From: a virus
Virus record (IMG/VR): IMGVR_UViG_3300035670_001322
Location: 1 to 22,555 of that record
DNA: 22,555 nucleotides
Reading direction: 5' to 3' (one strand)
Part shown: one piece after another, positions 9,380 to 19,619 of the stretch
Layout of the letters: every line of letters starts with the position of its first letter
Position numbering within the stretch: position 1 is the stretch's first letter
Translations under genes and position numbers: made by a program
Notes under the pieces: model-generated
What the model was told of the DNA's origin: nothing
The model's input: only the letters and a program-made list of their open reading frames with translations
Databases searched by the model: none

Positions 9380-9949
9380 TTATGCCAAATCAGTATCGGG
9401 ACTTAACTCAGTCTCGATATTCCAATTATTGATTTCCTTTTTAGTTTCACTACTTGCAGCTAACATTCCGTGCTTTTTGATGTAAGCTTCAAGCTGTGCT
9501 TTATTCATCTTCTGGACAGCTTCGTCCAAAATCTTAACTTCTTTTGTTTTAGATATCTTTCCACCAGCTTCCATAAGTACTTTTATCAATGATACCTTAG
9601 CGTTAACAGCTTTAGGATCGTCACTGAGGAGTATCTCTTCTGCTGTATCTAGTCCAATTTGGCAAAGATACTCGACTCTTTCGCGAAACTCTTCCTTGCC
9701 TTTGAACCAATCTTCAAATCCTGGCTGCTTCCACCAATGTTCTAACTGTCTGTTTCCTGTGAGGTTTACAGCCATTGTAACGTTAATGTTATTGGGATCA
9801 GCTTGGGGGTCTTCATGCATTGTAATCCAAAATTTACTTTTACATTTTCGCTGAGGGGGCGATGGTATAAATACGAGGTCGGAGGAAACCTCAAAGATAG
9901 ACGAGAACGCCGTATCTAGCTTTTTGGATTTTGGTGGGTTTGTTGACAT
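9380..9949 (-). CDS. terS: Putative terminase small subunit
   Basis: A 189-aa protein from ATG 9949. An upstream in-frame GTG at 9964 exists, but AGGGGG is placed six bases before the ATG, so the ATG is preferred. After a disordered start, residues ~60-90 (QLEHWWKQPGFEDWFKGK) are followed by helices (EEFRERVEYLCQIGLDTAEEIL, broken here for length) and a late KMNKAQLEAYIKKHG segment. The WW/WF pair and helical middle resemble small terminases that bind the packaging site and regulate the large subunit. It is the first gene after the promoter at 9979-10008 in the unit that holds the large terminase. The call rests on pattern and position; a generic DNA-binding role is the alternative. Confidence 0.55.
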   Translation of the reverse strand: MSTNPPKSKKLDTAFSSIFEVSSDLVFIPSPPQRKCKSKFWITMHEDPQADPNNINVTMAVNLTGNRQLEHWWKQPGFEDWFKGKEEFRERVEYLCQIGLDTAEEILLSDDPKAVNAKVSLIKVLMEAGGKISKTKEVKILDEAVQKMNKAQLEAYIKKHGMLAASSETKKEINNWNIETELSPDTDLA

Positions 9950-9978
9950 GTAGATCCCCCTCACTGATCATAACCACA

Positions 9979-10061: not shown

Positions 10062-10472
10062 TTATTGAAGAGTGGTGAACCATGGGTCAGATGGTTTCTC
10101 GTCCTCAGCTTCTTGATTTTCGCCCTCTAGTGTGAATTCTACTCTCTGGGTATGGTCACAGGTACACGAGGGTCGAAATTCTTCTAGGTACATTAAGTTC
10201 TTTGGGGTCGGTTGTTTGAACTTGAACTTACCCCAGTCTAGTTGTAGATCCTGTATGTAGCCACGGTCAGCTAGCCAACGCAAATAGTCTCTGACCCGAT
10301 GGGTGGGCTTACGGATTAACCTGGCTAGTTGGTTGGTACGACCAGTACAAAGGTCACAGTCCCACTTAACGAAGTCATAAGTTCCGTAAAGAAGGAGAAC
10401 TAGGATCTTGTAGGGGTTAATTTTGTTGGCTGGGTTAAGCTTACGTTTTGGTAGCTCGTAGTTGTCTGTCAT
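10062..10472 (-). CDS. Winged-helix-like DNA-binding protein (136 aa)
   Basis: A 136-aa protein with an ATG at 10472 preceded by GGAGGGAG. Residues ~20-86 read as a winged helix: a helix YKILVLLLYGTYDF, a helix RTNQLARLIRK, a recognition-like helix HRVRDYLRWLADRGYI, then a wing QDLQLDWGKFKF. Two CxC/CxxC pairs (CDLC at 39-42, CTC at 103-105) could bind metal. The C-terminus is acidic. It is the first gene after a perfect consensus promoter, separated from it by the AGCT-rich leader, which makes it a candidate for the regulator that acts on this intergenic region. Its target is not known. Confidence 0.7.
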   Translation of the reverse strand: MTDNYELPKRKLNPANKINPYKILVLLLYGTYDFVKWDCDLCTGRTNQLARLIRKPTHRVRDYLRWLADRGYIQDLQLDWGKFKFKQPTPKNLMYLEEFRPSCTCDHTQRVEFTLEGENQEAEDEKPSDPWFTTLQ

Positions 10473-10490
10473 TTACTCCCTCCGTATATT

Positions 10491-10699
10491 AGCTAGTCTA
10501 GCTAATATAGCTAATATGTTTAAGCTATAATACTGTATAGCTATATTTTAGCTATATACGGTATATATACTCCTTCGTATAACAGCTAAAATTAAGCTAG
10601 AAGGATATAAGCTTAATTATATAAGCTTATATATAGCTGTATAGCTTATATAGTATATAGCTATAATTAAGCTATAGCTTATATAAGCTACATATAGCT
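10491..10699. repeat. AGCT-rich palindromic array (17 copies)
   Basis: Seventeen AGCT tetramers in 209 bp, starting at 10491, 10500, 10509, 10523, 10539, 10550, 10584, 10595, 10610, 10624, 10635, 10643, 10659, 10670, 10676, 10686 and 10696. They are embedded in TATA-like DNA giving units such as ATATAGCTATA and TATAAGCTTATA. Fewer than one copy is expected by chance at this composition. Spacings cluster near 9-11 and 14-16 bp. Confidence 0.85.
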
Positions 10700-10701
10700 A
10701 T

Positions 10702-10730
10702 ATTATATATACATATAGGGTACGTGTCAA
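10702..10730 (-). promoter_or_regulatory. Perfect consensus sigma-70 promoter
   Basis: On the minus strand TTGACA (10730-10725), exactly 17 bp, TATAAT (10707-10702). The expected start of transcription is near 10695, inside the AGCT array, so the array would form a ~220-nt 5' leader of the winged-helix gene. Confidence 0.85.
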
Positions 10731-10828
10731 GCATAAAATACTTGGCGATAAACCTTTTTGGGCAAAGTCAATGATGTCACACAGTTACATGTTTGCAAAA
10801 TTATCAGTGTTTTCGGCTAAAAGACCCA

Positions 10829-10880
10829 AAGTGTGGTGAGGATAATCTCTCCTCTGCCGGGTAGGGGGTTCGCCCCACTT
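10829..10880. other. Foldable GC-rich segment with TTCG hairpin
   Basis: AAGTGTGG (10829-10836) is complementary, with one mismatch, to CCCCACTT (10873-10880). Inside lie GAGG/CCTC (10838-10841 with 10851-10854) and GGGG-TTCG-CCCC (10865-10876), which compete with the outer pairing. No T-run follows on either strand, so it is not a standard terminator. It could be a structured RNA or part of an origin. Confidence 0.4.
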
Positions 10881-10897
10881 CCCTCCAAGCCTATTAA

Positions 10898-10937
10898 TGA
10901 GACACATGAGACACTAAGCTGAGACACTGTGAGACAT
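10898..10937. repeat. Four TGAGACA direct repeats (iteron-like)
   Basis: TGAGACA begins at 10898, 10907, 10920 and 10930; the first three continue with C and the fourth with T. Spacings are 9, 13 and 10 bp. Same-orientation copies close to one helical turn apart are typical of initiator- or regulator-binding iterons. Confidence 0.65.
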
Positions 10938-11315
10938 GGCAGAGCTTTCTGGATTTCACCGGAGTATATACACAGGTTCCTCATGCAGGTAGGCTGAGTT
11001 GGTGGGGGTGGGATGATATTTACGTCCCTCTCGACTATAAAGCCTATCGCTCTGACTAGCTGGAATGATTCTTGCAAGCCTATGTTTACAGCTTTTACAT
11101 ACTCAATTTTTTGACACTTAATTATTACAACTAGTTATCTGTTTTTGTGGCAGCTTTTTGTACACCTCAACGACTTGTTTTGACCTAATCTATTGATTTT
11201 GTTAGGGCTGATTTTCTGGCATGGTGTGTGCAATAGATAAGGTGTGATTAGATACTGGCCGCATACTGTATCAACTTGATATCTTCCTACGATCTCCTAA
11301 GCGGCCTACCACATT

Positions 11316-11341
11316 GGACACTGCGGTGTCCGGCCAGTGTC
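11316..11341. promoter_or_regulatory. Nested inverted repeats upstream of first plus-strand gene
   Basis: GGACAC-TGCG-GTGTCC (11316-11331) is a perfect 6-bp inverted repeat. GACACTG (11317-11323) also pairs with CAGTGTC (11335-11341) as a 7-bp inverted repeat, so two mutually exclusive hairpins are possible about 35-60 bp before the first ATG. An operator or leader RNA switch is plausible. Confidence 0.45.
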
Positions 11342-11375
11342 TAGTAACTATAACACTAACGATGAGGGAATAACG

Positions 11376-14789: not shown

Positions 14790-15234
14790 TGGTTTTCAAG
14801 AGATGTATGATGACTTGATGGCTGCTTCGGCCAAGATTGATCACAACTTTCTGACATACATTATCGGTATAATGTACATAGAGTCTAAGTTTAACCCAAC
14901 TATAGGAGGACCGAAAGGAGAGAACTCAGTAGGACTTATGCAGCTAACTCCAATTGCCGTTGCAGAACTTAACAGATCACGAAAGGAACTTCCAGAAGAA
15001 TGTCAAGAGAACTTTGTTGTAGACAAACTAACTGATCCCAGATACAATATCAAAGCTGGTAGTTGTTTCTTCTTGCTTGGCTATCAACGAACAGGAACTT
15101 ATACAGAAGCAATAATACTTTATAATGGAGGGCAAGCACAGTTAAAACTTTTGGAACGCGACAGACGTATCACTAGTATCACAGCTAACTATGTAACATT
15201 CATTAACTATTTAAAGGAGACTTATTGTGAGTAA
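14644..15234 (+). CDS. Lytic transglycosylase (SLT, GH23-like) with signal peptide
   Basis: A 196-aa secreted peptidoglycan lyase that cuts between MurNAc and GlcNAc. The first ~23 residues (MARWIAYALASIVLMYSCKS) form a signal peptide, probably cleaved near SYA-D. The SLT domain shows catalytic Glu in MYIESKFNP (about residue 80), GENSVGLMQLTP (about 92-103) and YNGGQ (about 160-164), the three usual motifs. ATGs at 14641 and 14644 are tandem; GGGAGG gives better spacing to 14644. It may act in lysis or in crossing the wall. Four Cys in the mature part (CVT, ECQE, SCFF, YCE) could form disulphides in the periplasm. It overlaps the preceding gene by ~146 bases and the next by 8. Confidence 0.88.
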   Translation: MARWIAYALASIVLMYSCKSYADLIQLEETTDKTLACVTAVMERAKKTSGFQEMYDDLMAASAKIDHNFLTYIIGIMYIESKFNPTIGGPKGENSVGLMQLTPIAVAELNRSRKELPEECQENFVVDKLTDPRYNIKAGSCFFLLGYQRTGTYTEAIILYNGGQAQLKLLERDRRITSITANYVTFINYLKETYCE

Positions 15235-15871
15235 CAAAATTAAGATCATCGTGATTGCACTTTCTGTACTGCTTCTTAGCTATGCGGTATATGCTGCGAC
15301 CCACGTCAAGATTAAACTAGATCCACGCAGAACTGTATCTATTGTTGGTGTAGTAGATGGCAAGATATTAGATCAAGCAAACAAGCTAACAAACTTAGTT
15401 AATGCAAACCCAAAAGGAACTGTGTACATTGCAATAAATTCACCGGGAGGTATGGTAGTTCCAGGTTTTCAGTTCTTAACTGCAATGAAGATGGCCAAGC
15501 TTAGAGGAACTAAACTAGTGTGTGTTGTTCCTGTACTTGCAGCAAGCATGGCTTTCCATTTCTTAGCTGAGTGTTCGGAAGTATATACCACTGAGTTTGC
15601 TCTGCTACTGTGGCATCCAATGAAAGCTTCGTTTATGTTTCAATCACTCACACCAGAAGAGATGGAGTATGAAGCAGCAATGATTAGAATGTACGAAGCT
15701 CCTCTCAATGCACGATTAATAGAAGCAATGAAAGTAGAAGAAGACTTCTTTTATTATCACTATGCACACGAAACATTGTGGATTGCAAGAGCATTAAAAG
15801 AAGAAGCTCCAGAGTTTATCAAGATTGTAGATGTTATCGAAGGACTACCTAACCTTTTTTCAGTGGAGTAA
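15227..15871 (+). CDS. ClpP-fold serine protease with N-terminal signal/anchor
   Basis: A 214-aa protein starting at GTG 15227 with AAGGAG upstream. Residues ~5-24 (KIKIIVIALSVLLLSYAVYA) are a signal or membrane anchor. The rest matches the ClpP/SppA crotonase-like fold: INSPGGMVVPGF (70-81), the nucleophile Ser107 in VLAASMAFHF, and His130 in ALLLWHPMKA. A late IKIVDVIEG resembles the closing strand of the family. Cytoplasmic ClpP lacks such an anchor, so this one likely acts at the membrane or in the periplasm, in the manner of SppA-type peptidases. It is flanked by the transglycosylase and an RHH-like gene. The substrate is unknown. Confidence 0.8.
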   Translation: MSNKIKIIVIALSVLLLSYAVYAATHVKIKLDPRRTVSIVGVVDGKILDQANKLTNLVNANPKGTVYIAINSPGGMVVPGFQFLTAMKMAKLRGTKLVCVVPVLAASMAFHFLAECSEVYTTEFALLLWHPMKASFMFQSLTPEEMEYEAAMIRMYEAPLNARLIEAMKVEEDFFYYHYAHETLWIARALKEEAPEFIKIVDVIEGLPNLFSVE

Positions 15872-18655: not shown

Positions 18656-19035
18656 TGCTTACATACCATGTTGGCAAATCATACGAAGTAAAAGATCCTG
18701 CTATCAAGAAAGTAATGTTAGTATCTTTTAACTTATGGTCACAGACATTTAAAGCAGATGTATGTTTTAATGATGGGACAGTGATATGGGACGTAGAGTA
18801 TGCATCCAACGGTATATACATGGGAGGACTTGGTCCTTATAAGGTTGACCTCAATCTACTTGGGGAGTTCACAGGAGCACCTATTTCTGTCGAGAGTTCG
18901 TCATGTAAACACTGTTTTGTTAACATAGGATTTTATACAGTGAAGATGGCATGTAAGTATTGTGGACTAGATCAGAACGTAGCAGAGACAAACGACTGGC
19001 TTAGTTTAGTAAACCTAGAAGAGGAGATCATCTGA
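18655..19035 (+). CDS. Hypothetical 126-aa protein with C4 zinc-like motif
   Basis: A 126-aa protein; ATG 18655 overlaps the previous TGA, with AAGGAG upstream. Beta-rich N-terminal part (VMLVSFNLWSQTFKADVCFN, GTVIWDVEYASNG) and a CxxC pair (SSCKHCF, about 83-87) followed by ACKYCGLDQ (about 99-107), together a likely zinc-binding site. Its stop overlaps the next ATG (TGATG). No named family recognised. Confidence 0.65.
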   Translation: MLTYHVGKSYEVKDPAIKKVMLVSFNLWSQTFKADVCFNDGTVIWDVEYASNGIYMGGLGPYKVDLNLLGEFTGAPISVESSSCKHCFVNIGFYTVKMACKYCGLDQNVAETNDWLSLVNLEEEII

Positions 19036-19619
19036 TGGCTAGATTAAACCGAGACATCATTGATAAGTTTTATGAGCAAGACATCGATGTGTCATCTAAG
19101 ACTTTGTACTTAGGTGGAGGCTCCGATGATAACGAAACTATTGATGCTGTTACTGCTGCTAAGATCATTAAAGGATTACATCTTCTAGATAAGATTAAGC
19201 CAGATGAACCTCTAACTATTATAATGAACTGTCACGGCGGAGATACACAACATGGTATGGCTATCTATGATGCAATTAAAAACTGTACATCAGAAATTCA
19301 TATCAAAGTATTTGGCAGTTGTATGTCCATGGCTGTGTGGATACTCCAGGCTGCTGATAGAAGATTCATGTCTAAGCATAGTAAACTTATGATTCATGTT
19401 GGAACAGTTGAGTATGGAACTAATCATCCACGTAGTACAAAAGCATGGATTAAAGATTCAGAGAGAGATGAGATTTTGTTTGAGGACATTCTCCTAGAGA
19501 ACATCCGCGAAAAACATCCAGACTACACTAGACAAAAGATCAGAAATGATTTAGTATTTGATAAGATCTTCAATGCCCAAGAAGCAGTAGACCTTGGACT
19601 GGCTGATTATATAATTTAA
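19035..19619 (+). CDS. ClpP-like serine protease (cytoplasmic)
   Basis: A 194-aa ClpP-fold protein without signal peptide. IIMNCHGGDTQHGMAIYDAI (62-81) covers the substrate-strand region, the nucleophile is Ser98 in GSCMSMAVWI and His121 lies in KLMIHVGTVEYG. Near the end, NDLVFDKIFNAQEAVDLGLA (171-190) matches the family's Asp region and the EA-x-x-x-G-L-x-D closing motif. All three catalytic positions appear present. No ATPase partner is visible; phage ClpP-like proteases often act in capsid maturation, but this copy lies in the early-type unit, downstream of ung. It is the second ClpP-fold gene in the window. Confidence 0.85.
   Translation: MARLNRDIIDKFYEQDIDVSSKTLYLGGGSDDNETIDAVTAAKIIKGLHLLDKIKPDEPLTIIMNCHGGDTQHGMAIYDAIKNCTSEIHIKVFGSCMSMAVWILQAADRRFMSKHSKLMIHVGTVEYGTNHPRSTKAWIKDSERDEILFEDILLENIREKHPDYTRQKIRNDLVFDKIFNAQEAVDLGLADYII

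Follow-up and report, generated by a model that had tools for sequence, protein, structure and literature searches.

The window analyzed here is the whole 22,555-bp virus record IMGVR_UViG_3300035670_001322, which represents an incomplete genome. Late genes, including those encoding the portal, TerL, and structural proteins, run leftward from position 10,472 and are headed by a gene for a 136-aa predicted winged-helix protein, followed by a TerS-like gene. Early genes run rightward from ~11,376; among them are many small ORFs and a gene of the S-adenosylmethionine-lyase family. The divergent intergenic region between the two blocks contains a dense array of the tetranucleotide AGCT, which begins at the -10 box of a leftward sigma70-type promoter and ends at the ribosome-binding site of the winged-helix gene (Table 1). 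Promoters here denote consensus matches only, and the array would be transcribed by virtue of a 12/12 promoter reading through it. The weaker rightward site at the left edge of the array is at chance level but is placed where relatives have rightward promoters. Two of 22 family members matched a terminase small subunit PHROG, weakly supporting that assignment. No tRNA was detected in the search.

Table 1. Features of the early/late junction and related loci (window coordinates unless a relative is named)
Feature	Position	Strand	Remarks
TerS-like gene	9380..9964	-	Homologs come after the winged-helix gene in relatives
Winged-helix protein gene (136 aa)	10062..10472	-	Opens the late block; ribosome-binding site at ~10477-10484
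Weak promoter-like site	10462..10490	+	TTGTCT-N17-TATATT; 9/12 match; left edge of array; reads rightward
AGCT array	10491..10699	.	17 AGCT; noncoding; 75% A+T
Sigma70-type promoter	10702..10730	-	TTGACA (10730-10725)-N17-TATAAT (10707-10702); 12/12 match; reads leftward through array
Conserved element	10825..10890	-	AAGTGGG (10880-10874) ... CCACACTTTGGG (~10836-10825); common to relatives
GACAC repeats	10898..10940	+	Second repeated word of the control region
ClpP/head-maturation-protease-like genes	15227-15871; 19035-19619		Early block
HNH-like gene in winged-helix slot	L159 3881-4531; L197 3042-3698; L258 3722-4348; L262 1003-1632; L184 284-892		Relatives

All 17 copies of AGCT reported in the original prediction were present within the 209 bp, compared with 147 in the remaining 22,346 bp of the window (1.37 per 209 bp). 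Density elsewhere was not comparable: once the 800 bp before the winged-helix gene are set aside, the next densest 210-bp stretch has seven. The expectation of less than one copy held for local base composition alone (~0.5 per array length) but not for dinucleotide shuffles of the array, which averaged 8.4. As the maximum of 1000 such shuffles was 14, against 17 observed, local composition explains a share of the AGCT excess, not the whole. One word repeated 17 times is most simply read as a protein-binding-site cluster. GACAC was likewise overrepresented in the control region (eight copies versus 0.7 expected in 10473-11375), and its copies at 10898-10940 and 11318-11343 partly form inverted repeats.

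The flanks of the AGCT sites are mostly A/T, the array DNA having an A+T content of 75% versus 61%. Successive spacings were 9, 9, 14, 16, 11, 34, 11, 15, 14, 11, 8, 16, 11, 6, 10, and 10 bp; hence, the 9 to 11 bp described previously applies to 8 of 16 intervals, but sharp helical phasing was absent (resultant length 0.57 at 8.5 bp and 0.42 at 10.3 to 10.4 bp). The longer self-complementary units described at the outset were overstated, since palindromes of more than 6 bp occurred at only five sites (16, 12, 10, 10, and 8 bp) and symmetry outside AGCT itself barely exceeded chance. In agreement with the original prediction, the array is neither coding (no ORF of at least 50 aa overlaps it) nor a simple tandem repeat (Tandem Repeats Finder returned only weak, overlapping rows). 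A terminator could also be dropped, as no GC stem with a T-run was found in the array, and an Rfam search yielded no known RNA family. The array contains a 34-nt internal duplication, the copies lying 120 bp apart, which differ at seven positions, none of them among the 12 AGCT bases (hypergeometric ~0.03 by hand count, a value biased by the seeding of repeats on shared words).

The phage belongs to an uncultured family whose near-complete contigs are ~57 to 61 kb. TerL and TerS searches recovered ~100 family loci; scans that used a single winged-helix, TerS-like, or uracil-DNA-glycosylase sequence as query recovered none. No nucleotide relatives were detected among GenBank phages, and a TerL protein search of these returned only Microbacterium phage Shocker, at 22% identity. 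The contigs of the window's nearest relatives (TerL ~60% identical) stop short of the control region, making close comparison impossible. Of the first 94 loci, 29 have a winged-helix homolog immediately ahead of the TerS-like gene, and in part of the family this slot is occupied by an HNH-nuclease-like gene with Cys pairs. A TTGACA promoter usually lies 36 to 70 bp before the winged-helix start in relatives; that of the window is at -258, with the array between. A homolog of the second ClpP-like gene was located near terS instead in L012, L016, and L024. T7-like RNA polymerase was not matched, but control genomes also gave no match, so this search does not establish its absence. Many family contigs (L024, L182, L199, L152, L214, L188, L196, and L016 among others) stop 0.4 to 1.4 kb upstream of the winged-helix gene, that of L199 just 4 bp before the conserved AAGTGGG element, and these stops are either genome termini or points where repeats broke the assembly. 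In L175 (record G010), 17-bp tandem repeats (AGCTACCGCGACGGGTC) occur at 59546-59668, near the extreme end of the 59.7-kb contig. Three loci (L215, L216, and L217) were found inside bacterial or archaeal MAGs (Oligoflexales, Saprospiraceae, and Nanoarchaeia), possibly as binning artefacts and hence without indicating a reliable host.

Conservation of the array in position but not in sequence was borne out for part of the family. IMG/VR was scanned blindly for three spaced AGCTATA. Among the at least 119 stretches obtained was one in L030, a distant relative (TerL 36%, portal 47% identity) that has its own AGCT array in the corresponding position before the winged-helix gene (14 AGCT per 210 bp). 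L030 thus came from a selection for AGCT arrays; most of the remaining matches fell in unrelated contigs, where the repeats were in many cases tandem or coding. Moderate AGCT clusters (6 to 7 per 210 bp) were found in L025, L196, L167, and L212. About ten other relatives had different, phage-specific repeated words in the control region, often just past a strong promoter; examples are L188 (GCATTAC), L024 (CATAG), L010 (GTAACT), L166 (CTAGTA), and L211 (ACAGAGC). Others had none, including L153, L214, L191, and L208, despite encoding the winged-helix protein. Where a strong promoter points away from the late genes, the sequence past it was enriched for repeated 6-mers (z ~3 to 7) in L188, L166, L262, L024, L167, L196, L202, L022, L010, and L217 but not in L170, L182, L191, L016, L208, or L215. 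With the window and L030 left out, the 500 bp before the winged-helix gene were repeat-rich relative to same-locus windows (Fisher p = 0.003), a modest statistic, and the median relative was unremarkable in the same-locus ranking. Repeats were stronger with the winged-helix gene than with the HNH-like gene in its slot (p = 0.03). Given that distant relatives keep the gene layout, often with their own repeated words, the array is probably a protein-binding-site cluster that controls the early/late junction or starts replication there.

Neutral accumulation, in which short palindromes were multiplied by local duplication in an unconstrained AT-rich spacer, would accommodate the 34-nt duplication, the array of L030, which is mostly a 12 to 13 bp imperfect tandem repeat, and the fast turnover of words among relatives. 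It is improbable, however, in view of the recurrence of arrays at the same locus in distant relatives, beside strong promoters, and of the retention of AGCT although spacing varies. A structured RNA leader was suggested in the original prediction. On this reading, which we extend here, the array transcript would affect antitermination, RNA stability, or translation of the gene that follows it. The array does fold better than shuffled sequence (z about -4 to -4.7), and the 200 nt past the promoters of relatives fold better on average than controls (~-1.7 versus 0.0). Both strands fold about equally well, however, as expected of DNA-level inverted repeats, while L030 (z 0.1), L182, and L022 fold no better than shuffled sequence, and the winged-helix promoters of most relatives would give a leader of only a few tens of nucleotides. 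The missing Rfam match also speaks against such a leader. As several arrays fold similarly on both strands, a role as RNA is not favored, and its likelihood is small.

We then considered which protein might bind the array. The 136-aa product has no family match, but its AlphaFold model is a confident winged helix (residues 18 to 90 mostly at pLDDT >90), making it a candidate DNA-binding-type protein. Fold matches were weak and generic (AspA, CRP, and ArsR types in the PDB, and also MarR folds). As the AspA match is of this kind and no partition gene was identified nearby, the suggestion of a partition-like site was unsupported. Among relatives, similarity of the recognition helix was not clearly linked to that of the array words (Mantel r = 0.106, p = 0.06). 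The recognition helices of L188 and L170 are nearly the same although their words differ, a plain counterexample to coevolution of protein and array; conversely, the helices of the window and L030 are dissimilar although both arrays consist of AGCT. Hence, coevolution was unsupported, and the winged-helix protein is a candidate array binder by position only.

We tentatively favor a multisite autoregulatory operator, in which the array would be a homotypic cluster of sites bound by a DNA-binding protein of the phage, most likely the winged-helix protein. One sequence-specific phage protein would bind the AGCT sites, the likeliest being that whose leader holds the array. Cooperative binding would then cover the 209 bp that separate the strong promoter's -10 box from the ribosome-binding site, so that transcription entering the winged-helix/terS/late operon would be repressed or metered. 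That a protein binds, which protein this is, and that it represses are inferences. Consistent with an operator, the repeated sites adjoin a promoter of the putative regulator's own gene, this gene encodes a domain predicted with high confidence to be of DNA-binding type, and a single 4-bp word recurs 17 times in diverged, nontandem surroundings. Arguing against it, repeats in most relatives lie past a promoter facing the opposite way, several relatives with the winged-helix gene have no array, and helix similarity did not predict the array words. A comparable arrangement is the KfrA operator of plasmid RA3, where an autoregulated HTH gene has several 9-bp repeats across its promoter and is repressed according to their number (PMC7783346). 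Both systems place repeated short sites at the promoter of a gene for a DNA-binding-type protein. RA3 has five 9-bp repeats, however, compared with 17 AGCT in 209 bp, and KfrA is a long alpha-helical protein with demonstrated binding, unlike the small predicted winged helix that is the candidate here.

A replication origin is a possible but less likely reading, in which the array would be an initiator-binding segment, an easily melted segment fed by the strong promoter, or both, resembling Ceduovirus (c2) or iteron-like lambda O-type origins. The operator was preferred because the array occupies the promoter and leader region of a gene whose predicted product is of DNA-binding type. In Ceduovirus (lactococcal phage c2), the origin is noncoding, lies between divergent early and late blocks, and has a strong promoter reading into an untranslated segment; unrelated origin sequence types occur in otherwise alike genomes (PMC7150918). 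The window matches this in having an intergenic, noncoding site between divergent blocks, a strong promoter reading into AT-rich DNA, and sequence types that vary across the family. Further in favor of an origin, near-complete relatives encode a family-A DNA polymerase, with a DnaB-type helicase not found in 11 of them, and BFVD look-alikes of the winged helix include replisome organizers and a lambda O N-terminal protein; one family member matched an O-like initiator PHROG. Cumulative GC skew also turns at the control region in the window and in most near-complete relatives. However, it turns where the gene strand switches, for which transcription alone suffices, so that this check, proposed in the original prediction, cannot decide on an origin. 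Past EP1, the c2 origin itself repeats short words only a little (z 2.0) and so failed as a positive control for repeats. Moreover, the c2 promoter gives a noncoding early-side transcript, whereas the strong promoter of the window is directed at a coding late-side gene, that for the winged-helix protein, and only the 9/12 candidate reads rightward. The sequence conserved across the family is, in addition, the AAGTGGG element and not the array.

This ~60-bp noncoding element (AAGTGGG-N~20-AATTT-N~9-CCACA) is common to ~23 members, including L211, L201, L152, L153, L182, L022, and L016, and lies upstream of terS, nearly always on the same strand and in most members 230 to 880 bp before the winged-helix gene. 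A variant, AAGTGCC, was found in members without the winged-helix gene. The element is a candidate cos/pac packaging site or origin core. In lambda, repeated sites read by a winged-helix phage protein lie beside packaging (cosN-cosB-nu1) or replication (ori-O) genes, although they are longer, fewer, and more regular than the AGCT of the window. By analogy with cosB, the array might consist of sites read by a terminase recognition subunit and placed between terS and a cos-like element, and the order of conserved element, array, winged-helix gene, and TerS-like gene recalls cosN-cosB-nu1. We consider such packaging recognition highly doubtful, as cutting of the element is not in evidence and relatives without an array still have the element.

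Immunity of the temperate-phage type was rejected, whether based on stoperators or lambda-like. Neither an integrase (PF00589) nor a CI-type gene above cut-off (PF01381) was found in the 11 near-complete relatives (0/11 each), and the family is apparently lytic. Mycobacteriophage L5-type stoperators are asymmetric 13-bp sites scattered genome-wide in temperate phages (PMC9283540). As with stoperators, one short site recurs many times in a single phage genome, both at promoters and in spacers, but the sites of the array are clustered, and those genes were not found in the relatives searched.

A broader reading, which we consider unlikely, combines several of these functions. The early/late junction of the family would be one nucleoprotein hub in which fast-evolving, homotypic, phage-specific word arrays serve both promoter control and the start of replication (or packaging recognition), with the words turning over faster than the winged-helix protein. 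If the array is indeed a protein-binding-site cluster, it would offer a compact, testable case of phage control regions that keep their layout while recognition words turn over. It would also locate the control region, and the conserved element adjoining it, of a phage family without a close cultured member among the GenBank phages searched.
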